A stretch of DNA of 21,393 nt from assembly GCF_000003605.2 (NCBI RefSeq), contig NW_003143795.1:26893-48285 (forward strand), written 5' to 3'. This stretch comes from Saccoglossus kowalevskii (taxonomy: Eukaryota; Hemichordata; Enteropneusta; Harrimaniidae). The first letter of the stretch is position 1, and each line of letters starts with the position of its first letter. The notes under the pieces are model-generated. The model was not told the origin of the DNA. It searched no databases and worked only from the letters and a program-made list of their open reading frames with translations. A program made the position numbers and the translations under genes. Of the stretch, positions 5,817 through 21,393 are shown piece after piece.

Positions 5817-6591
5817 ATGAAAGTAAACGTTCCAAGGTATTTAGGGATGGTCCACGAATTAGAGAATTACGTCACTGTGTTAGAGAAATTGAACTACACT
5901 TTATTCGGCAATCTCAGTAACTCGGCTTGGTATCTGTGGAAAGTAAACGAGGAGCTAGACGCGTCACTAGGCGACACAAGTAACGCGCCTCTACCGATCA
6001 TTGTGAGCGGAAGTCAGTTGAATACGCACCTGACAGATAACCCAGACCTTCCGTATATTCTCCGTCATTATTCTGACAGATTACAGAGATGTAATTTACT
6101 CGACTTGGACATGGCAGATGGTATGTATGCCGCGCTTGTGTCGGCTAAGAAGGACATCAACGCGAATCGAATGCGATATGCACGGGAGGCCTCCACGGTA
6201 CAGGAAAGAGAACGAACACTGAAACAGTTCAGCTACACTCTTAAGGCTAAGGTTAACCAGTTACTAAACTGTTACCGTCTTGGAAACGAACCATACGATC
6301 ACAGACTTTTTCCGAGTCCAAACAATCATGCAACAGTTATTGACATTGATCGCATCGAAACGATTAAATACCGCCATTTACATGAAGTATGTCGGATTAG
6401 AAAATATCCTGTGCTTTTTGTTTTTATTGAAATTTTACATTTGCTGAAATGTGAATTCGAGAATGTCCTGGAATGCTGGTTTCCGAAATGGATGATGAAA
6501 ATTGTGCCAAACCTTGCTGATACACGGTCGAGGATACAGTCACAGTTGAATAATATTCTTCGATTTGAAGTATACTCCCCACGTCCAAAAA
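5817..6591 (+). CDS. Exon 1 (coding): unrecognised helical N-terminal domain
   Basis: This single 775-bp exon encodes residues 1-258 and ends in phase 1 at a GTGAGT donor. The predicted protein is rich in Leu, Glu, Lys and Arg with few Gly, as in long alpha helices. It has a charged stretch (REASTVQERERTLKQF) with coiled-coil character, and a hydrophobic run YPVLFVFIEILHLL at about residues 198-212 that could be a buried helix or, less likely, a membrane segment. There is no signal peptide. I recognise no family. One intact exon joined in phase 1 to a string of phase 1-1 FN3 exons looks like a module added by exon shuffling. Confidence 0.8.
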
Positions 6592-9500
6592 GTGAGTGAT
6601 GCAATTATTTTGTTTCGAGGTTTATACATTCACTGCTAAGTAAATAGATGTAATACGATGTAAAACGTCCATATATCAGCTTGAATTTTTACAAAGTACC
6701 CATACATAATTATTTATTGTCCCTCATGCCATTGGTACTGTTAAATATAAAAACAAACTTACATAATTGCTGCCATATTTTAGTTGTTTTCATATTTCTA
6801 AACATGAAAACTGATGCCATCTGAATTGCTGTAAAACAAAAAAAAAAAAAATGGTCAAAGTGCGCCACAGAAATATTAAGACCGAAAAATGAATGTTTAT
6901 AAAGAGCGCCATCTAGTGAGTATTTTTTGTATAATGGATGGTGTTATTATGTCTGTAGGAAAACTGTTTAGATTCAATTATGTAAGCTAAATGGCACGTA
7001 ACCGGGTGATATTAAATGATCATTTTTATGACATTCTTTCAGGCGTTGAAGTTAAGAGTGTTACAAGAAACGATATCGCCATTAAATGGATTCCTGGACA
7101 TGCTGACGATCAAGAGCAACATTTCCATGTAGCTTACCGTCAACTTCATGACAGGAAATTCCGGAAGTATGAAGTGGATGGCGGGAAACTGGAAGCCACT
7201 TTGTCTAATCTGATGATCGATACAGTGTACGAAATTGTGGTTGTTGGGACGACGTTGCTGCGGACTGTGACGAGTTTCAAGATAGTGGCAAAGACGATCG
7301 AAAAAAGTATGTAAACGTAATTTATGATTCTAATCATCGAGCGACACAGCCATCATTACGAGAACGTTGATGATATTTTACGATTGGAAAGACAATGTGT
7401 ACCCAAAATCGTTTCGTTTCGGGAAAAAATTAAATTGTCATCTCTGACCAATACTCATGAAATTGCGTTGTTAATACGAAACAATACATCGATAGTTATT
7501 TAAAAATGACACAAAAATACAACAGATGCTAATATATTTAACTATTGAATATGTTAATGTGAAGATGAAATTTAAAATACGCACCTTATGTACAACTTAT
7601 TTCAATTATCATAACATTTAGAACATTATACGTTGGTCATGGTACCAGAGCATGCGACTCACACACCAATCGACGCAATCTACGATGCCGCGGCGCTAGC
7701 GGCACACGCGGGTTACGATAAGGATGCCGAGACAACATAAGTTAATTTCATTGTATTCAATTACCCTCCTTACGCGCTCTACCAATACAGCTCTGAAAGA
7801 ATTGGTCTCACGGCTTGTATAGTACTGTGTATGGCACGTATAGGAAAACACATTCCTCCAACATAGGAGCATAATTTCCTAGTTAAATTGTTGCATAGGA
7901 AAAAGGAATTACTAACAAAATACCTCAAACATACTTAAGAACGAAGATATATTTCTATCGACTTGAAACGTTCGTCGGTTACTGTAACATGTTTTGTCCG
8001 TTTTTTTAAAGTTGTAAGAGTGTCATCGACGACTGAGAATTCAATAAGTTTGGTATGGCCACACGACCAAGATATGGAATATACTGTTCTCTGCTTCCTC
8101 GTGAAAGACGAAACATTACGTCATCGTGTACAGCTACGTAGTCAAGTGACGTATACACTTGATAATCTAGAAGCTGGTGAAGAATATCTCGTCACTGTGA
8201 TTGCCAAGAAACACAAGATCGTGATTTGGCGCGATAAATTCAAGCACAGAACAGACAAACCCCGTAAGTTTCATATCTGATAATTTATGTTATGGGTGAC
8301 CTCGCTTGGGAAAAGGTAGGCTAATAATTCGCGAAGATCTACAAAGATTGTGGCGAAGATTGTACAATTTAAATGAAATTCTCACAGACTTTTGCCATCG
8401 GTGATTGGAGCGCAGGTATTGCGTCATCCACATTTGCTTTGGAAAAAAAAGAAAACATTCAAAACGCAATTTCTTTTAACAAACCGCATTTCCTGCAAAA
8501 TGTTTAGGCCAGTCGCACGAACGCAACATTCTTTTCTTTTAGCACACTGGCCTCATCGTAAAAAGGTTGATTTATTTTCGATTTAAATAACCGATGATTG
8601 TCACAGTAACCACCTTGTGTTGTTCATCAGGTTACGCATAACTCGGCATCCTTTCTGATTATCTCTATAAATATCATACCAATCTTCCATTTCAGCGCCC
8701 TCAATTGATTTACTCATCGAAAGTGCATCGGAGAATTCCTTATTTTTGGAGTGGACAGTTCGTGAAATGTACCCCGGCGATTTGACCTTCCGCGTTAGAT
8801 ACCGGCGTCACGGTCACAAAGAATGGAGTGGAAGCAGCGAATTGAAAGATCAAACGAATTATTCCATTCGTGGGTTAGAACCAGAGACAAATTATGACAC
8901 TATAGTAATTGGTACATTGAATTCCGAAACTATTAAAAGTGACGTAATAGAAGCAAATACAAAGAAAGGTCAGTGTTGCACCAAAAAGCTGTATTTACGT
9001 GTTTTACATAATAACTTAACGTGGCATTGTGTTTTCGTTAAATGGAAGTATAGCCTATTAATTATATACAATAATTATACACTGTCGCATTCATCTTGCA
9101 GAGAGAAACCTACACGAGCTGTTGTGTATACAAGGTTTGGTGGGTACCGATGGTGGCAACCTGCGATCTGATTCCTGTGGAGTTAGCATCGTGGTACCAG
9201 ATAAGAACATCATCAAGAAAGGGCAGTTTCCTGTAGCTATCTCCATTTCTGACAACCCTGAACTTGTTCCATCGCTGGACGCCACTTCGGTATCGGCATC
9301 CAATGCTGTTAAAGTCGAATTTTCCAGTGGTCTTTTTACGCACCCAGTTCCAGTCACGTTTCAAATTTCAATAAACGAGAGCGAGGGCTGGACAACTGAA
9401 CTGTTCAAGAGGGGTGTATCTCACGATGGAAATGTATTCGAACCACTGGAGGACTCGTCGTTTGTTATGCTGAAAGATGGGCGGGTAACTGTCAATGTAT

Positions 9501-12221
9501 CGCAACCGACCACGTACACCGCTGTCGCACATTCAAGCGCGACACACGTGGGGTGCTAATGTTCGAGTGATGCGAGTCATCGCGTTTGTCTGAACAGTCA
9601 TTGTGGTGAATGTTTCGCCACTCTTCGCGTATACTTAGTGGCTAACTCGGATGATTCGGAACAGGTAATGTGTAATTCATAATTTAGGGTGCTATGGCCG
9701 CCATTACGGCGTTAAAGGCAAAAACTGTCTGCTCGTTAAGCGACTGCGCACCTTTACTGTCACTGTGTCATTTCGCATTTGAAGAAATCCCCTCTATTCA
9801 CACTGTTAAAAATCGCAGATTTATAACAAGGGATGGGAATGTTGTATATGAATCATGACGTATCTTCATAAATTGGCAATAACACAATGTTCTCTTTTAG
9901 TTGGTCATGGCTGAAGAGAGACGAATTGGCGATCTTTTCAGGGGAAGGAAATTAGCACCACACTCCTTCCAGATACAACACCAGAAAGGAGACATAGACA
10001 TCGTGATTTCGTTTGACAAAGATAAGTGGGAACCCTTAAATAAGCCTGTAAGTGAGATGCAGTAACATCAATCCCGTGCTTGCGATTCACATTATATATA
10101 CTGCCGCCGTAATACTGAAAGCACAAACAAAAGTAATTCGAAAGCTACCGTTAGCGGCGTGCATATCTAAATTACATGTAATTGTGAGAGTCACGTTAAA
10201 TTGCTCAGACAGATTAAATGGATAACTTGGTTTTTCTTATTTCCGATTTTTATGCATTTTTAATATTACCAAAACCACGTGGTTATAAATCATATTTGTT
10301 CATACCCTTTCAAAGACAAGACACATTTTAAAAAACATTTTGTAAATTAAAATAATAACTGAATCTTATCATACAAGTTACTTCTCAAACTGTGCTCAAA
10401 TATATTACATGCAATTTCACCATTTAAAAATTGGACTTAAATCTGCATTTCATTGTAGTGGATTCATTGCAATATCAATCTAATAGAAGACATTGGTATT
10501 TGACTACCTTTTTTCTGAAAATTGTTGTTTTGGTAACTTAATCCTGAACACCTAACGCACCTCATTTTACCACTCTTTCCACCTTTAAAATGTTTTTTCT
10601 AATATCCCTCCAATTAAAAACCTCCCCACTTACAGTTAACATATTGCGTAACGATTACGCGATTGTATTTTTAACTCGAGAGAACGTAATTTTCTAAACC
10701 AATGCTTTGGTAACTTTCTAATATCAGACTGCTTGTTGACGCTAATGTCATCTACGTGAACCGAAAGGAGCATTAATACACTGACATACAGCGTTATTCA
10801 TGTATTTTATCAAATCTTGTGAATTTTTTTAAAGTTGTCAGTCGTTTTGCACTAGACAGACTGGTTGTCACTCAGCGTGTCCGAATTACTTATAAACAAT
10901 CAATTGTACAAGCGCCCTCTAACAATTTAAATGAGGAAGAAGTAACTATATTCACGAGCGTACGTTTTTTCTTTCCTCGTAGAAAGCTGTGTTCAGTTAT
11001 CACATGGCATGGCAATATGGAAAGAGACAGTATAAAGAATTTCTATTTAAGTGCATGGATACCAACAACAATTCACCGGATCACTTTTCAGGTTCAATGT
11101 CACTGAAACAGGAATATGCAACAAATACAGTAACAACTCCTTTTATAATATACCTCAGCATTCCAGCGAAGGTAACTGTACTTCTATGTCTAGATGAGGT
11201 CATAACACATGTCTCGATTAACCGATAAGGCATATGGTGAGAATACCTACGACAATATGTAAAATCTCAAATTAATTGGGAATTGAAACCTAACATGTTA
11301 GAAAATAATGAAGTGTAAAGTTTCTTAATATGATTGAGTTGCTCTACCGTATTTTGTGGGGCTATTTTGTACGGCTGCGATTGCCGCAATATGTTCTGGA
11401 AGCGCGTTCTCATAATTGCGTTTTCAATCTCAAGGGCACAAACGATTTCAAATATTAATATTTCAAAATGTTTCATCTTCATTTGGATAGGATATCTGGG
11501 TTTGGTTCGCTTCCATATGTGAATTATAAATTCCACAGCCCACTGAGAATGAACGATATGCTACAAGAAATCCATTTAACCAAGCGTTACGTGGGACGTT
11601 ACGAATTACTCCATCGAATCACTAATTAAATGTGATTTATTATTAGTGAAAACGTTTCTAATCATCTGTCACAACTAGAGATTGAAGCGTTTAGGCACGC
11701 TTGCTGACAGTTTGTCTTGTGGACAAGAAACTACACACAGTTACAGTAGACACATTACCAACCATTCGGCCATATATTATACTTCCATTCAGTTATGATC
11801 GACCTCATACTTTTTTATATATACTTAGAAACCCGCACCGTGGCAATTTACAACAGACGTGCGACCAACAATGTTCACGCAAAGTGAAGCTCGCAGTATT
11901 GCAGAAGAGCTAGACCTACCAACAGTCAAGGTGAATAATGGGTGGAGACGACTGGCTGAGCTTATTGGTGTGAAAACTGCGTATATAGAAACAATGGAGG
12001 AGAAGCAACAACACAACACTGATTACAGTCCAACCACGGAGCTACTGAATACATGGGAGGCCCAAGAAGGCAACTTATCTTCGGATAGTTACGATAGCCT
12101 AAATGTGATATTTACTAATTTAAATGTCACGCTAGGGAGCAAAATTACGACACTGAAATCAAGACATTTCAATATTAATAGGATTGATCATTCAGATTCT
12201 GAATTTGAACCGAGAATTTAA
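5817..12221 (+). CDS. Intracellular FN3x3-ZU5-UPA-Death domain protein with a new N-terminal helical domain (nine exons)
   Basis: Exons are 5817-6591, 7043-7306, 8012-8263, 8696-8968, 9102-9552, 9598-9664, 9901-10047, 10983-11171 and 11829-12221. They total 2811 nt, an exact multiple of three, for 936 residues. Layout: 1-258 helical unknown domain; FN3 at about 259-346, 347-430 and 431-521; ZU5 about 533-665; UPA about 673-806; Death about 821-905. Every junction is GT-AG and phases agree throughout. ZU5-UPA-Death is the cytoplasmic signalling module of UNC5 and PIDD and also occurs in ankyrins. There is no signal peptide, and no clear membrane span separates FN3 from ZU5, so this is not an UNC5-type receptor. 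A role as a death or inflammatory adaptor is inference. The weak point is the ZU5-UPA junction, where an in-frame TAA at 9557 must be removed by a 45-bp intron. Confidence 0.82.
6904..6920 (+). promoter_or_regulatory. CTCF-like motif in intron
   Basis: GAGCGCCATCTAGTGAG is the closest match in this window to the bilaterian CTCF core (GCGCC-N-CTAGTGG). It lies in the intron before the first FN3 exon. Confidence 0.35.
7043..7306 (+). CDS. Exon 2: first FN3 module
   Basis: This 88-codon exon is phase 1 at both ends. It starts after TTCTTTCAG and stops at GTATGT. It shows the FN3 pattern: a conserved Trp in strand B (DIAIKWIP), a Tyr in strand C (FHVAYRQL), a Leu before the EF turn (ATLSNLMIDTVYEIVVVG), and the final T/S-rich strand. 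FN3 modules are beta-sandwich protein-binding domains. With no signal peptide upstream they would act in the cytosol here. Confidence 0.85.
7622..7740 (+). CDS. Possible alternative terminal exon
   Basis: A frame of 38 codons ends in TAA at 7738-7740 and is preceded by an acceptor-like CATTTAG (ends 7621). Read in phase 1, which is the phase left by the FN3-1 donor at 7306, it stays open. The local GC and CpG content is clearly higher than in the flanking intron, as in real exons of this gene. The translation includes VPEHATHTPIDAIYD and an Ala-rich stretch, and matches nothing I know. If used, it would end the protein after one FN3 (385 residues, no ZU5-UPA-Death). No AATAAA follows closely, so a decayed exon or chance is possible. 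Confidence 0.4.
8012..8263 (+). CDS. Exon 3: second FN3 module
   Basis: This 84-codon exon is phase 1 at both ends. It follows a T-rich acceptor ending TTTAAAG (8011) and stops at a GTAAGT donor. It has the strand B Trp (SISLVWPHD), the strand C Tyr (MEYTVLCFLV), and the LDNLEAGEEYLVTVIA signature, where the Tyr corner and the L-x-P/A-G turn define FN3. It is more divergent than the third module at its N-terminus, and the split codon at its start depends on the acceptor chosen. Confidence 0.82.
8696..8968 (+). CDS. Exon 4: third FN3 module
   Basis: This 91-codon exon is phase 1 at both ends, between CATTTCAG and GTCAGT. It begins with the usual Pro-Pro-Ser linker (KPPSIDLL) and carries the strand B Trp (SLFLEWTV), FRVRYRR in strand C, and IRGLEPETNYDTIVIG, a textbook FN3 E-F corner. 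It is the best-preserved FN3 of the three and sits directly before the ZU5 exon. Confidence 0.88.
9102..9552 (+). CDS. Exon 5: ZU5 domain
   Basis: The exon enters in phase 1 after CATCTTGCAG. It encodes GTDGGNLRSDSCGVSIVVP, the start of a ZU5 domain (GG-x-L, then G-V-S-I-x-x-P), followed by GLFTHPVPVTFQI and NVSQPTTYTAVAHS near its end. ZU5 domains bind partners and, in UNC5, fold back on UPA and Death to hold the protein inactive. I end the exon at 9552 (phase 2, donor GTGCTA). Reading on instead reaches TAA at 9557-9559 after one more codon. Confidence 0.85.
9553..9597 (+). other. Putative 45-bp intron holding the only in-frame stop
   Basis: The ZU5 frame and the UPA frame are the same frame on the genome, interrupted only by TAA at 9557-9559. 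Taking GTGCTA at 9553 as donor and GAACAG ending at 9597 as acceptor removes 45 nt (15 codons) and the stop, and restores a continuous ZU5-UPA reading frame. The other introns here are 87 to 935 bp, so 45 bp is extreme. The alternatives are a genuine stop, stop-codon readthrough or a sequence error. Confidence 0.45.
9598..9664 (+). CDS. Exon 6: start of the UPA domain
   Basis: This short exon encodes CFATLRVYLVANSDDSEQ and ends in phase 0 at GTAATG. The L-R-V-Y sequence followed by a polar/acidic loop is how UPA domains begin in UNC5, ankyrin and PIDD. It supports reading this stretch as the continuation of the ZU5 exon. The 5' limit depends on the 45-bp intron model. Confidence 0.65.
9901..10047 (+). 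CDS. Exon 7: UPA domain, middle part
   Basis: This 49-codon exon has phase 0 at both ends, between TCTCTTTTAG and GTAAGT. The E-R-R-x-G-x-L-F segment followed by a hydrophobic FQIQHQKGDIDIVISF strand fits the E-x-x-x-G-G-x-L then F-x-F pattern of UPA. Splice sites are strong on both sides. Confidence 0.8.
10911..10923 (+). promoter_or_regulatory. Weak CTCF-like motif in intron
   Basis: AGCGCCCTCTAAC shares the GCGCC-CTCTA core of the other sites in this window but lacks the terminal GTG. It is the weakest of the four. Confidence 0.2.
10983..11171 (+). CDS. Exon 8: UPA domain, C-terminal part
   Basis: This 63-codon exon has phase 0 at both ends, after CTTTCCTCGTAG and before GTAACT. It contains VFSYHMAWQYGKRQYKEF and ends in PFIIYLSIPAK, the hydrophobic last strand of a UPA domain just before the linker to Death. 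The preceding intron (10048-10982, 935 bp) is the longest of the gene and shows no extra exon. Confidence 0.8.
11829..12221 (+). CDS. Exon 9: Death domain and C-terminus
   Basis: The exon enters in phase 0 after TATACTTAG and runs 130 codons to TAA (12219-12221). A short linker (KPAPWQFTTDV) leads into the Death domain: IAEELDLP in helix 1, NNGWRRLAELIGV in helices 1-2 with the hallmark Trp, then ELLNTWEAQEG in helix 4-5 and the final SLNVIFTNLNVTLGS. Death domains form helical assemblies with partner Death domains such as FADD or RAIDD types. A Ser/Asp-rich tail (IDHSDSEFEPRI) follows. The domain looks complete, with no breaks. Confidence 0.88.
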   Translation, partial: KPAPWQFTTDVRPTMFTQSEARSIAEELDLPTVKVNNGWRRLAELIGVKTAYIETMEEKQQHNTDYSPTTELLNTWEAQEGNLSSDSYDSLNVIFTNLNVTLGSKITTLKSRHFNINRIDHSDSEFEPRI

Positions 12222-12780: not shown

Positions 12781-12786
12781 AATAAA
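12781..12786 (+). terminator. Polyadenylation signal AATAAA of the Death-domain gene
   Basis: The first canonical AATAAA downstream of the stop at 12221 is 560 bp away, implying a 3' UTR of about 0.6 kb. Variant signals closer to the stop cannot be excluded. Confidence 0.45.
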
Positions 12787-15089: not shown

Positions 15090-16613
15090 AAAATGTCTTG
15101 CACGAGAACGCCTAGTTGTTGTAAATAACGATTAAAACTGGAATTTGTGAAAGTAAGTGTCAAAGTAAAAGTGTTAATAAATTATAAAAGTATTAATAAT
15201 AAAAAAAAATATGTCTAGGGCTACTATCTAACTGTTGCAAAAATGATCATGATAGTCCGCAAACTGGCACACTGAGTATGTAATCTCATTTAGGCAGTCC
15301 CTGGGCTGCCCTGGCGGGGTTGACATGATGTTCATTCGATGGAAATCACATTTGCGTCGACACTTATAGGCGTAATAAAAGTTAACTCCTGTGCAAAAAC
15401 CATTTACCTAACCCATCGACTGATCAAATGCCCGCGTTCGCCGGGAAGCTAAAATAAACAGTGTGCAAAAAGAAACGTGATATATGTTCCCCGCACGCGT
15501 AGTAGATGCAATTCGTAAAGGTGTCTTAAAGCACTTAACTCGAAACGTTTCGCATTATGTATTCCCAAACGATGTTTTGCAATCAAGCAATATTCCTAAT
15601 GTTGTATTTTTTGCTGTAGCACACAAAATCAACGTTTCATTGGTCATTAAACCATTTACACACAGAACAAAAAAAAAAGTAATTACACAATGTGGCTGGT
15701 GCCCATAGGGAACACTGCATTAGAAATGTGTGTAGGAATTCCAACAGTTATATCGTCTTCATGGTGAACTGACTACAATTAGGTTATTTTTGAGTCCCCG
15801 TGAAATCCATTTTCTCAAAACACGAGTAGCATGTTGTTGATATTTATTTTTCCTAGATGTCTTTCCCACCTGTTTCAGTTCATACGGAGCAAGGTGCTTT
15901 TTGACTTTGCCGGAGATTTTCTAGACCGTTATACTAAGCCACTAGTGTATTAAGTTGCAGCTTTGATTTTGAATTGCGTGCAGAGACCTGTTGTGACTGT
16001 AATTGACACTTCCTAACAAATCAATACATGAGACATGCAGACTTCCACACATCGCATGGGATTCGACAAACGCGAAGTATTTCCTGGGTATTTGCACGCT
16101 TGGTAATGTGCTATACGCGTTTGATGGTGGCCAATTTTGATGACGTCATATTGGTTCGCGCTTTTCACGTATTGCGAGAGGTTCTCCAGTGGACGGAAAA
16201 TCGTCTATTGGCAAAAATAATAATGCCATTTAGTCAATCAGCTTTGTGACGTGCTATCTACCACACATCGACTAAAAACTGAATATGTCCGGAAATATAT
16301 TTGACAAATTATTTCACTAATATGCTATATAAGGTAATATATAATACATCTGTCACCGTAACGCCATAAGTTACAGCGTGCTGTAATTTGGCGGTAATTT
16401 ACGGGGTATTTTCATCTTACCATATTAGGAAATGTGAATTCCAAGTATGGAATGATTACGCGCGTAAACGTCCGCTAATAATAAAAACAAACACGGATGA
16501 CACCGGACCGGAATTCACACAAAGAAGTTCGCTTTTTCTGTTCTAAGCATTATGAATTTAGGCATTCCCGTGATGTATTCATGGAAGGAAAAACAATGTA
16601 CAATATTAAGGTT

Positions 16614-16732
16614 ATTACAAGGATACCTCAGAGTATGCACTCAGACAGTACGCCGCGCATCGACCTCCGCTGCGTGTCGGTCGATACTCCCTCTGTACTG
16701 TCTTCGTGCATACTTTGAGGTATCCTCGTAAT
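16614..16732. repeat. Foldback element, 38-bp imperfect inverted repeats
   Basis: The left arm (16614-16651) and the complement of the right arm (16695-16732) match at 34 of 38 positions around AGGATACCTC and AGTATGCAC. The 43-bp centre contains a second nested pairing (ATCGACC with GGTCGAT). Weaker pairing continues outward to about 16600 and 16745. It could be a foldback or MITE transposon, or a long RNA hairpin. Confidence 0.7.
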
Positions 16733-17075
16733 GACCTCATATTATACGATTGCTTACAAGTTGTAGTGCTGTCCTTATATTAATTATTCATCACTGATGT
16801 AATCTGTCAATTAGTTAGTTGTATTCTGAAAACATTCAGTTTCACTGTAGTCTTTGAATATAGCGTGAACAATTACACTTTTCCCACAAATAATTCAAAG
16901 AAAAAAATAAAATCTTCCTGACAACCGGTAATTAGGTATAGCGGTTTCACCACGTAACCTTTTCTAACATTTAGTTTATCAGAAATCGCCTTAAAGCAAT
17001 TCGAATATTTGAGAGCTAATTATTTCGTCTGAGAGAAAAGTGAAATATGTATTTCCAAAAGTGATACAAATGCAG

Positions 17076-18570: not shown

Positions 18571-18597
18571 TAAAGTTGATGTCTACCACAAATGAAA

Positions 18598-18675
18598 GGC
18601 AGACAGACGGGAGGACTGGTGGACCAGAGGTACCGAGGCAGACAGACGGGAGGACTGGTGGACCAGAGGTACCGA
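18598..18675. repeat. Perfect tandem duplication of 39 bp
   Basis: Two identical adjacent copies (18598-18636 and 18637-18675) that begin GGCAGACAGACGGGAGGAC. The unit is a multiple of three, and several frames on both strands remain open through both copies, so it could lengthen a protein by 13 residues. Zero differences between copies suggests a recent event. Confidence 0.9.
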
Positions 18676-18726: not shown

Positions 18727-18965
18727 GTGCCACATGTTTAGAAACTGTTTATGTGAAGAATTCTGACCATGTAAGCTACACATATCTACAAAAGACAAGC
18801 TGTGGTCTGCTGGAGGTGCATCATCATAACCAAAGTCTTTTTGTACAGCTGAGGCCACCTTCACGTGCAAGACGTTTTGAAACTCAAATGAGTCATGGTT
18901 TTAATAACAACTTGTTCATTATTGGAAGTGGTACATCAATGAAACACACCGGGGTACAATATTGA
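18727..18965 (+). CDS. Probable last exon of a second TNF-superfamily ligand
   Basis: The frame runs from an AG acceptor at 18725-18726 to TGA at 18963-18965. It encodes VSYTYLQKTSCGLLEV, then QSLFVQLRPP, then NNNLFIIGSG. These line up with strands F, G and H of the TNF-like gene at the window start (SGLFELRAGDRLYMKV and STFMGMFLVSG). The exon enters in phase 1 and is 239 bp long, the same phase and length as the last exon of that gene. The acceptor has a weak pyrimidine tract and the matching first-half exons are not convincingly found, so it may belong to a decayed paralogue. The opposite strand is also open here, but shows no family likeness. Confidence 0.5.
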
Positions 18966-19400
18966 CCATTGACCTATTGACTTTGTTTGGTCATGTGTAC
19001 CTGATAATGTGTAAGGGGATTAATATAATCCAGTAAATAGATATTCCACTTCTCCCACAGTAAATTGTGTTATTGCACATTTCATTCTGCCTCGTATGTG
19101 ATTTTGTATTTTACACTAACCATACTTAGAAAGAGTATAAATAATACATGCCTGGTATCATTTCATCTCTATTCTTTGTAGTCCAAATATCACTTTCTAA
19201 GAGATTCAAGAACCGTTTTGTGTATGGTAATGACCAATGTTTTCCGTTTGTGATAATCTTCATGACCCAGAGTGGATTCAGGTGACCTACATTGCCACTA
19301 ATGAGTGGACGTGAACAATCAATAGCAACACTAATTTGCCTTGCCATGAAATCAAGTAGACTTAAATGTCGAATGTCAGTTCGACCAAGATGATATCAAA
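18840..19400. repeat. Diverged repeat unit, copy 1
   Basis: Anchors shared with two later copies: TCACGTGCAAGACGTTTTGA (18861-18880), TTTTACACTAACCATACTTAG (about 19109-19129) and CCTGGTATCATTTCATCT (about 19151-19168). Copy 1 overlaps the TNF-like last exon and extends at least to 19260. A further shared block appears at about 19633-19700. Confidence 0.55.
19126..19347 (-). CDS. Minus-strand open frame inside the repeat unit, unrecognised
   Basis: A 73-codon frame includes PLWVMKIITNGKHWSLPYTK. The second repeat copy (about 20600-20780) preserves a similar minus-strand reading, with GKSWFCYT in the matching place but with frame breaks elsewhere. It could be a relic of a transposon or gene, or only the complement of a conserved non-coding repeat. 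No family assigned. Confidence 0.22.
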   Translation of the reverse strand: MARQISVAIDCSRPLISGNVGHLNPLWVMKIITNGKHWSLPYTKRFLNLLESDIWTTKNRDEMIPGMYYLYSF

Positions 19401-19927: not shown

Positions 19928-20323
19928 GAGAGTTATTGTAAACAATGTTGTAACATAATTGCCCGTTAGTTAATATGATGATCATATGGCGTCGGCAAAT
20001 GGGCGATTACCAATCTCCTCAATGTAATATCCTGAAAATACAGTCGTTATGTATTCGACCAGAAAGTGTACAGGAAATAATAGTTTTTCGTGACAGAAAA
20101 AAATAATACGTCATCGGAACAAGAAACTGTTCACTGTGATTAATTTTTCTTTATATAATCCGCATCAATGCACTACGAATGTTATTTTGATTTTATACGT
20201 AAGTTAGATTGCTGTTGAATCCATGAAAAGGAAGGAATCCAATAATGTGAATGAGCAGTAAATTGGAAATATGTTATAGACATCCGTATTATTCCCCTGT
20301 TAGATCACCAACAGAGTTCATCT

Positions 20324-20780
20324 TCACGTGGAAGACGTTTTACAATTTAGATGAGGCGTGGTGTCCTACAACAGCCCTGGCGCATCAATGATAGCAATGG
20401 ATACTGCGGTTATATAGAACGGTTTATTCAATGACGTCTTGCTTAGCAAATCTCATCCCACCATTGTGAAGATCGATACATACCTCATTTTGCCTTGTAG
20501 GTGTTTTTGTGTTTTTTACTTTAACCATAGTCAGAAATTAAAAAACATCACCAATTGCACGTCAATAATAAGTGGCTTATGAATATAGTTACTACACACC
20601 TGGCATTATTTCATCTTATACGCCTAGGGTTCGAATGTTATTTACGGAGTGGTTTAAGTGATGTTTTTGTGTATAACAAAACCAAGACTTTCCAACTACG
20701 ATAGTCTGTACAGGATCGACTACGGCCAAGTTATATTTTTTAATACGAGCTATGAATTGTGCCAAGTAATTCTATATGAC
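20324..20780. repeat. Diverged repeat unit, copy 2
   Basis: Starts with TCACGTGGAAGACGTTTTAC (20324-20343), continues with TTTTTTACTTTAACCATAG (20512-20530), and shares CACGTCAATAATA (20558-20570) with copy 3 and CCTGGCATTATTTCATCTTA with copy 1. The TNF-like reading of copy 1 is broken by stops here. Confidence 0.55.
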
Positions 20781-20842: not shown

Positions 20843-21393
20843 GAAAGACGTTTTACATTTCAGATGAGTTTGTAATTTGAATAGCAACCATTTGAATGGA
20901 AATATTTGATTTAACAGTAATGGATTACAACAATTTCTTGTTACAACATTGACTACCTTTCGTATGTGCTTTGTTTGGTTATAATGATGAGAATAATAAT
21001 AATAAATTCTGGGCATCACTAATCCGGCATACTAAATCGTATTTAACGATGGGTTGCTTGGGAGTCCGGTTCTTCTATTGCGAAAAACAATACAGATTGT
21101 TTCTAAGTGTTTTCGCTTTTTTACACTAAATATACTCGTTTTAAATATCACAAATGTACGTCAATAATATTTAGCCCATAGATATAGTAACGATATCTTA
21201 CATCATTTCACTTGGCATGTTTTTAGAGTTTATTTACTAAGTATCCTGCTATTATGCTAATAGTTTCGATTCGTAAAAATCAGTAGTTCAATGGGAGATT
21301 GCAATTTACAGTATCATCGAAAGCGAAAGTAAAAACACACAATTCAGATCGATATGACATCATACTGGTAGTTTACAATGTAGTAGGACGAAG
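20843..21393. repeat. Diverged repeat unit, copy 3 (cut by the window end)
   Basis: Starts with GAAAGACGTTTTACATTTCA (20843-20862), continues with TTTTTTACACTAAATATACT (21116-21135) and TACGTCAATAATAT (21157-21170), and ends with a block containing CAGATCGATATGA (about 21345) that matches 19664-19676 after copy 1. It reaches the window edge. Confidence 0.55.

Follow-up and report, generated by a model that had tools for sequence, protein, structure and literature searches.

The locus at positions 5817-12221 of the window, the 21,393-nucleotide stretch of Saccoglossus kowalevskii DNA analysed here, raises the question of whether a helical N-terminal region, three FN3 modules and ZU5, UPA and Death domains belong to a single protein and, if so, where and how such a protein would work. 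The gene is real and its product is a putative protein, whose parts, integrity, relatives and possible mode of action are considered below.

The gene model and its surroundings

The first-pass annotation had proposed nine exons joining into 936 residues. The nine pieces listed in Table 1 yield 936 codons when joined, with one stop, the terminal one, and GT-AG at every junction. Exon 1 lies inside a stop-free run of 273 codons, for which the chance is 3.7e-9 at that length, in a given place and with this base composition. The coordinates, phases and single stop therefore stand as proposed, but the junction between exons 5 and 6 is probably a frame interruption and not a splice, and comparison with related sequences suggests that the exon count is probably eight, with an interrupted frame, instead of nine. 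A bacterial promoter scan was also run, which carries no information for an animal gene.

Table 1. Features of the gene, in window coordinates
Feature	Position	Strand	Evidence and remarks
Exon 1: start codon, N-terminal helical region (residues 1-258), first strand of FN3-1 at its end	5817-6591	+	Donor GTGAGT, phase 1
Exon 2: FN3-1	7043-7306	+	Phase 1-1; Pfam fn3 E 6.6e-7 joined with the end of exon 1
Exon 3: FN3-2	8012-8263	+	Phase 1-1; Pfam fn3 E 2.8e-6
Exon 4: FN3-3	8696-8968	+	Phase 1-1; best fn3 stretch, residues 431-507
Exon 5: ZU5 (Pfam match 9134-9403), 133 bases after exon 4	9102-9552	+	Pfam E 8.5e-9 (exon plus three preceding residues)
45 bases, "intron" of the nine-exon model; probably codes, in a shifted frame, for the first UPA strand	9553-9597	+	In-frame TAA 9557-9559; paralogue profile
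"Exon 6": probable UPA start (LRVY...)	9598-9664	+	End is the donor position common to paralogues
Exon 7: probable UPA middle	9901-10047	+	GT-AG, phase 0; UPA by position and weak profile match (mainly UPA start)
Exon 8: probable UPA end	10983-11171	+	GT-AG, phase 0; UPA by position only
Exon 9: Death (Pfam match 11931-12116), short tail, stop TAA	11829-12221	+	Pfam Death E 1.8e-8 on the exon; genome search
AATAAA, possible polyadenylation signal	12781-12786	+	Seen directly in the sequence

About 4.75 kb upstream, on the same strand, the window holds the 3' part of a TNF-family ligand gene (1-1066, +; Pfam TNF E 7.7e-21). Positions 1968-2045 resemble the head of a tRNA-derived SINE, with an A and B box pattern; ARAGORN reported no tRNA, this segment included, and an Rfam scan came back empty. 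An imperfect palindrome at 16591-16755 (75% over 169 alignment columns) is MITE- or foldback-like, and a 39-base unit is repeated perfectly in tandem, in two copies, at 18597-18674. Diverged repeat units lie at 18856-19132, 20319-20592 and 21151-21191, in a right-hand part of the window in which no gene was recognised.

The ZU5 and Death tail

On the 936 residues, Pfam recognises ZU5 (E 1.2e-7) and Death (E 3.3e-7), both over the curated cut-offs and in the same order as in the UNC5 receptor, and a ZU5 profile search of the genome likewise places the ZU5 of the window at exon 5. Together with the three FN3 modules, these domains had been named from the letters of the sequence, and the profile check bears them out, with all of them above their gathering scores.

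The UPA domain, claimed between ZU5 and Death in the same annotation, fares less evenly. Pfam UPA has no match in the 936-residue protein, and in a pairwise comparison of the UPA segment with UNC5B, 166 of 2000 shuffles score as well, so that the similarity is not above that of shuffled sequence. On the other side stand its position and an HMM built from two UNC5 sequences, which gives 6.3 bits at the expected place, a score reached by one shuffle in 1000. When this HMM is moved along the protein, the two best windows (6.5 and 6.3 bits) contain the UPA segment and the next reaches 1.0, the UNC5-like match spanning only the UPA start. The missed Pfam match itself tells little, because Pfam UPA passes its cut-off at just two of the 39 ZU5 clusters of this genome (C1732 and C613), with a sub-threshold match at a third (C2106). 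Its position makes a UPA between ZU5 and Death probable; its support from the sequence is weak.

A probable frame interruption between ZU5 and UPA

The 45 bases at 9553-9597 are a multiple of three and contain an in-frame TAA. What they represent can be judged from paralogues: of 26 ZU5 frames other than the window's, 14 segments were selected by eye and 12 frames left out, and these 14 run from ZU5 through a linker to an LRVY-like UPA start within one uninterrupted exon. A GT directly follows the paralogue exon at eight of the nine ends checked and comes three bases earlier at the ninth, and by hand count seven of eight such ends lie at the same distance behind the LR-like pair as the end of "exon 6". 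The linker strand, exemplified by RVLVYADL and KVGARGKY in paralogues and RLQLAIFAP in UNC5B, has a counterpart within the 45 bases of the window, ANVRVMRVIAFV, which is out of frame. Scored with a profile made from UNC5B and the 14 segments, the shifted frame obtains 9.2 bits, against 2.3 for the spliced reading and 1.9 and 2.8 for the others, and eight of 1000 shuffled inserts reach 9.2 bits. Exons 5 and 6 are thus probably one exon, by these comparisons, in which the frame has been interrupted by an assembly error or a real change.

A UPA strand in a shifted frame next to an in-frame TAA means either an assembly error, a recent break, or a product that ends after ZU5. Were the break real, a protein of 673 residues would be made, consisting of the helical region, three FN3 and ZU5, or else the locus would be a recent pseudogene, and the UPA and Death exons would be relics. 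The TAA, the different frame of the fitting UPA coding strand, and a G+C content of 0.49 in the 45 bases as compared with 0.30-0.39 in the other introns (6% of whose 45-base pieces are equally rich) all speak for such a true break. However, the remaining exons are open, their splice sites are intact and the Death domain still scores; moreover, the frame returns after about 45 bases, which paired sequencing errors would fit equally well. A true break is unlikely, while still deserving serious weight, and a pair of assembly indels, or a polymorphism of recent date, is somewhat more likely than an old pseudogene, since the other junctions and the domains are intact.

Alternatively, the 45 bases could be a genuine micro-intron, the nine-exon protein of 936 residues being made as first modelled. 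The piece begins with GT and ends with AG, its removal keeps the frame, and the codon statistics of the 45 bases are undecided, their best frame being neither the straight nor the paralogue-fitting one. An interruption between ZU5 and UPA is also possible in this genome, because in the UNC5-like gene on C1732 the two domains begin about 0.8 kb from each other, in different frames; there, however, the ZU5 frame stops earlier than that of the window, so that the interruption falls at a different place. A length of 45 bases contrasts with 133-935 in the other introns, no counterpart occurs in the 14 paralogue segments used, and splicing would remove the first UPA strand, with the loss of profile score given above. 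These points make a micro-intron improbable, and the interrupted single exon remains the preferred reading of this junction.

FN3 modules and the N-terminal region

Pfam fn3 matches the joined protein in three stretches (E 5.1e-20), all over the gathering score. The first module scores 29.9 bits (E 6.6e-7) when the end of exon 1 is joined to exon 2, 27.2 bits (E 4.5e-6) when the intron is read in, and 26.0 bits (E 1.1e-5) on exon 2 alone, and the better score lends modest support to the predicted join. Each FN3 domain occupies one exon, and all three exons are phase 1-1, the usual form for an FN3 module. The block resembles the FN3 modules of tenascin-R (E 1.1e-6) and Tie2 (E 1.8e-4); within the genome, a search with it matches the block itself and one distant FN3 (E 0.003).

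Residues 1-258 had been described as a helical domain of unrecognised type, a description that agrees with what was found. They are all-helical in a single-sequence structure model of low confidence (mean pLDDT 44), and neither Pfam nor PDB sequences offer a credible match: the Pfam matches are limited to a single family of viral peptidases, sub-threshold and implausible (E 0.13 and 0.053), and the PDB sequences give none at E up to 10. Scans of prokaryote and virus collections, which catch close relatives only, returned no relative, and in the 572-Mb genome the N-terminal query matches itself alone at E up to 0.001. The best PDB match in the structural analysis of this region (E 0.41) was set aside.

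An origin from a HEPN domain of the DZIP3 type was also considered, an idea that came from a known pattern, from HEPN-Death fusions and from an oyster HEPN-Ig-DED family. Passages of PMC3710099 describe HEPN-Death fusions and an expansion of HEPN_DZIP3 in oyster and Nematostella, and the oyster form has HEPN and Ig repeats followed by DED-TRADD-N (in passages of PMC8195603). This origin finds no support in Pfam. HEPN_DZIP3 (PF18738) has zero matches genome-wide, a silence that is no proof of absence because the control genomes gave no match either; with no profile behind it, HEPN is retained as a lead only.

Cellular location and unity of the gene

The absence of a signal peptide and of a membrane span before ZU5, noted at the outset, is upheld by hydropathy. 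In windows of 19 residues, for which the usual membrane-span threshold is 1.6, the maximum mean is 1.57, in FN3-1, and elsewhere the highest value, in a helix predicted for exon 1, is 1.40. By hydropathy, the protein has no hydrophobic start, the best mean among windows starting in the first 25 residues being 0.29, and, read upstream from the ATG, the frame closes after 39 bases. With no span-like stretch by this measure, the protein is most simply read as intracellular, as the first-pass annotation had also suggested.

For this to be a surface receptor of the UNC5 type, with ZU5-UPA-Death inside the cell and FN3 exposed outside, an exon that escaped recognition would have to supply a signal peptide or membrane span. 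FN3 is mostly an extracellular module, the modules it resembles here are those of tenascin-R and Tie2, and a TNF-family gene lies upstream. Against this, only 133 bases separate the exons of FN3-3 and ZU5, with no hydrophobic stretch between them, and the closed frame before the ATG argues in the same direction, which renders a surface receptor very improbable.

The same short gap bears on whether this is one gene. That a helical-FN3 gene and a ZU5-Death gene have been fused by the model alone is scarcely credible, even if ZU5 elsewhere in the genome follows other N-terminal parts, such as LRR in one frame, because the 133-base intron has a good donor and acceptor of matching phase 1. With the FN3-3 and ZU5 exons so close, one transcript is far likelier than two genes, and a single gene very likely encodes all these parts, from the helical region and the three FN3 through ZU5 and a probable UPA to Death.

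The ZU5 family in the same genome

The genome searched is an assembly of 572 Mb in 4830 contigs, in which the window corresponds to C3460:26893-48285. ZU5 has 44 matches genome-wide, 42 of them over the cut-off, which fall into 39 clusters, for instance L032-L051. At 19 of these clusters a same-strand Death match (E up to 0.01; 67 in total) lies no more than 10 kb downstream, and a home-made Death profile hints at more Death matches. From these numbers, the tail of the window gene is part of an expanded and shuffled family. An iterated ZU5 search started from the domain of the window found only itself.

The FN3 modules set the window gene apart from the members surveyed. Across 149 frames that contain ZU5 or lie upstream of it, at 29 of the 38 other clusters, Pfam fn3 has no match. 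The 149 were scanned out of 162 listed frames at these 29 loci, with ZU5 found in 29; the upstream flank covered was 6.3-6.5 kb at 19 loci, 3.1 kb at one and 1.5 kb at nine, and at one of the 29 a run of N across the ZU5 frame made it unreadable. Other partners do turn up in frames at or upstream of ZU5, namely leucine-rich repeats, ankyrin and kinase. A home-made FN3 profile, applied to 1164 frames (1096 from the 29 other loci), agrees with Pfam in finding no FN3. This second negative is limited, because without the window seeds that profile recovers two of the window's FN3 clearly, the third being a weak match (E 0.2), and it is the Pfam result that carries the claim.

Several members of the family can be described individually. 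A single frame of 679 codons at L030:661-2697 (-) encodes LRR followed by ZU5 and is PIDD-like. At L050:2913-7223 (-), a single open frame of 1437 codons encodes a ZU5 (residues 1262-1341), its sole Pfam match at E up to 0.001. A protein kinase frame (L042:6780-7799, -) lies upstream of a ZU5 on the same strand (L042:2928-3602, -), perhaps as a kinase-ZU5 gene; such a gene is listed for amphioxus in passages of PMC9573974. Some ZU5 matches contain internal stops and may be broken genes.

Relation to known systems

A close parallel in domain order is UNC5 (UNC5B, PDB 3g5b), which shares ZU5 and Death in the same order, with between them a UPA-like region that is probable in the window gene. UNC5 receptors carry extracellular Ig and TSP1 domains; the window gene, in contrast, has neither of these by Pfam and no membrane span by hydropathy, and presents three FN3 and the helical region instead. 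Ankyrins have ankyrin repeats and two ZU5, which Pfam does not find in the window protein. PIDD1 is intracellular and resembles the window gene in having ZU5 and Death in its tail, but the latter lacks LRR by Pfam, has one ZU5 where PIDD1 has two, and is devoid of an HF-S site. The LRR, ZU5 and cleavage-site features of PIDD used for comparison come from passages of PMC9573974 and PMC3210808.

The FIIND proteins CARD8 and NLRP1 combine a ZU5-UPA module with a following death-fold domain (passages of PMC3210808), whereas the window gene has Death and no CARD match, SQPT in place of an SF/S site, and FN3 in front. A likeness is also found in the lineage-specific shuffled TRADD-N/DED proteins of marine invertebrates, which also form an expanded family with an adaptor module joined to varied partners. 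According to passages of PMC8195603, TRADD-N proteins have been shuffled in a similar way, including fusions to UPA-ZU5; Pfam finds neither TRADD-N nor DED in the window protein.

The literature comparison drew also on passages of PMC8260672 and PMC3482391. Among the open-access matches listed, represented by titles, beginnings of abstracts and some passages, the order helical-FN3-ZU5-Death has no description; the texts that combine ZU5, Death and FN3 concern, by title, UNC5 and netrin, axon guidance and FLRT (reviews), and RIP kinase. The proposal of a new architecture can therefore be kept in part: the order was not found in this literature, and FN3 is absent from the frames surveyed at other ZU5 clusters, but the tail belongs to a large shuffled family. 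The domain combination looks unusual, and its novelty is relative, the ZU5-Death tail being shared.

Autocleavage site and proposed mode of action

In PIDD, CARD8 and NLRP1 the chain is cut at an HF-S or SF-S at the ZU5 end, and UNC5B has Leu in place of Phe at the cleavage position (both in passages of PMC3210808). At the aligned place the window gene reads SQPT, with the triplet QPT and no HF-S/T, and is in this respect similar to UNC5B, where the triplet is QLG. Elsewhere in the family the site is common: [DNE]HF[ST] stands at this position in at least 14 of 27 ZU5 frames (the window's included in the 27), a count that is a minimum, since some frames stop short of the site and a further two have THFT. 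Thirteen of the 14 triplets are HFT and one is HFS.

The model for a member without the site is UNC5B, in which ZU5 binds UPA and Death and silences signaling until a ligand opens the module (passages of PMC8897508). By analogy, the ZU5 of the window protein would keep UPA and Death in a closed supramodule at rest. The FN3 modules, seen as recognition arms in the first-pass annotation, and the helical region may bind a partner or ligand, and such binding at the N-terminal half would open the supramodule and free UPA and Death, which could then recruit death-domain partners, with outputs of the caspase or NF-kB type. Release would be conformational and not proteolytic, as in UNC5B but in the cytosol, an expectation that follows from the replacement of the HF-S/T type triplet by QPT. 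The gene itself may have originated when a tail of the expanded ZU5-UPA-Death type was joined to phase-1 FN3 exons.

Taken as a whole, the locus is read here as an animal gene for a cytosolic, non-cleaving death-domain adaptor or sensor, whose closed ZU5-UPA-Death module would be opened by N-terminal binding and whose frame interruption would be either recent and polymorphic or due to paired indels in the assembly. This reading is preferred tentatively, its chance of being right in all these parts falling a little short of even. A bolder version, in which an undescribed helical domain and an intracellular FN3 triplet serve as recognition arms for a non-cleaving ZU5-UPA-Death clamp, and in which one functional gene beside the TNF ligand gene encodes a new kind of cytosolic sensor, is doubtful and decidedly unlikely to hold in full.

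For the family, the Thr of the HFT triplets makes it a question of interest whether cleavage is allowed in this ZU5 expansion. If the protein of the window gene is made, a member devoid of the site within a family rich in HF-S/T would offer a natural comparison between proteolytic and conformational release. The ZU5-UPA-Death clamp would then also appear as a free module that can be plugged onto varied recognition parts, FN3 included, as is the case in NACHT and TRADD-N proteins.
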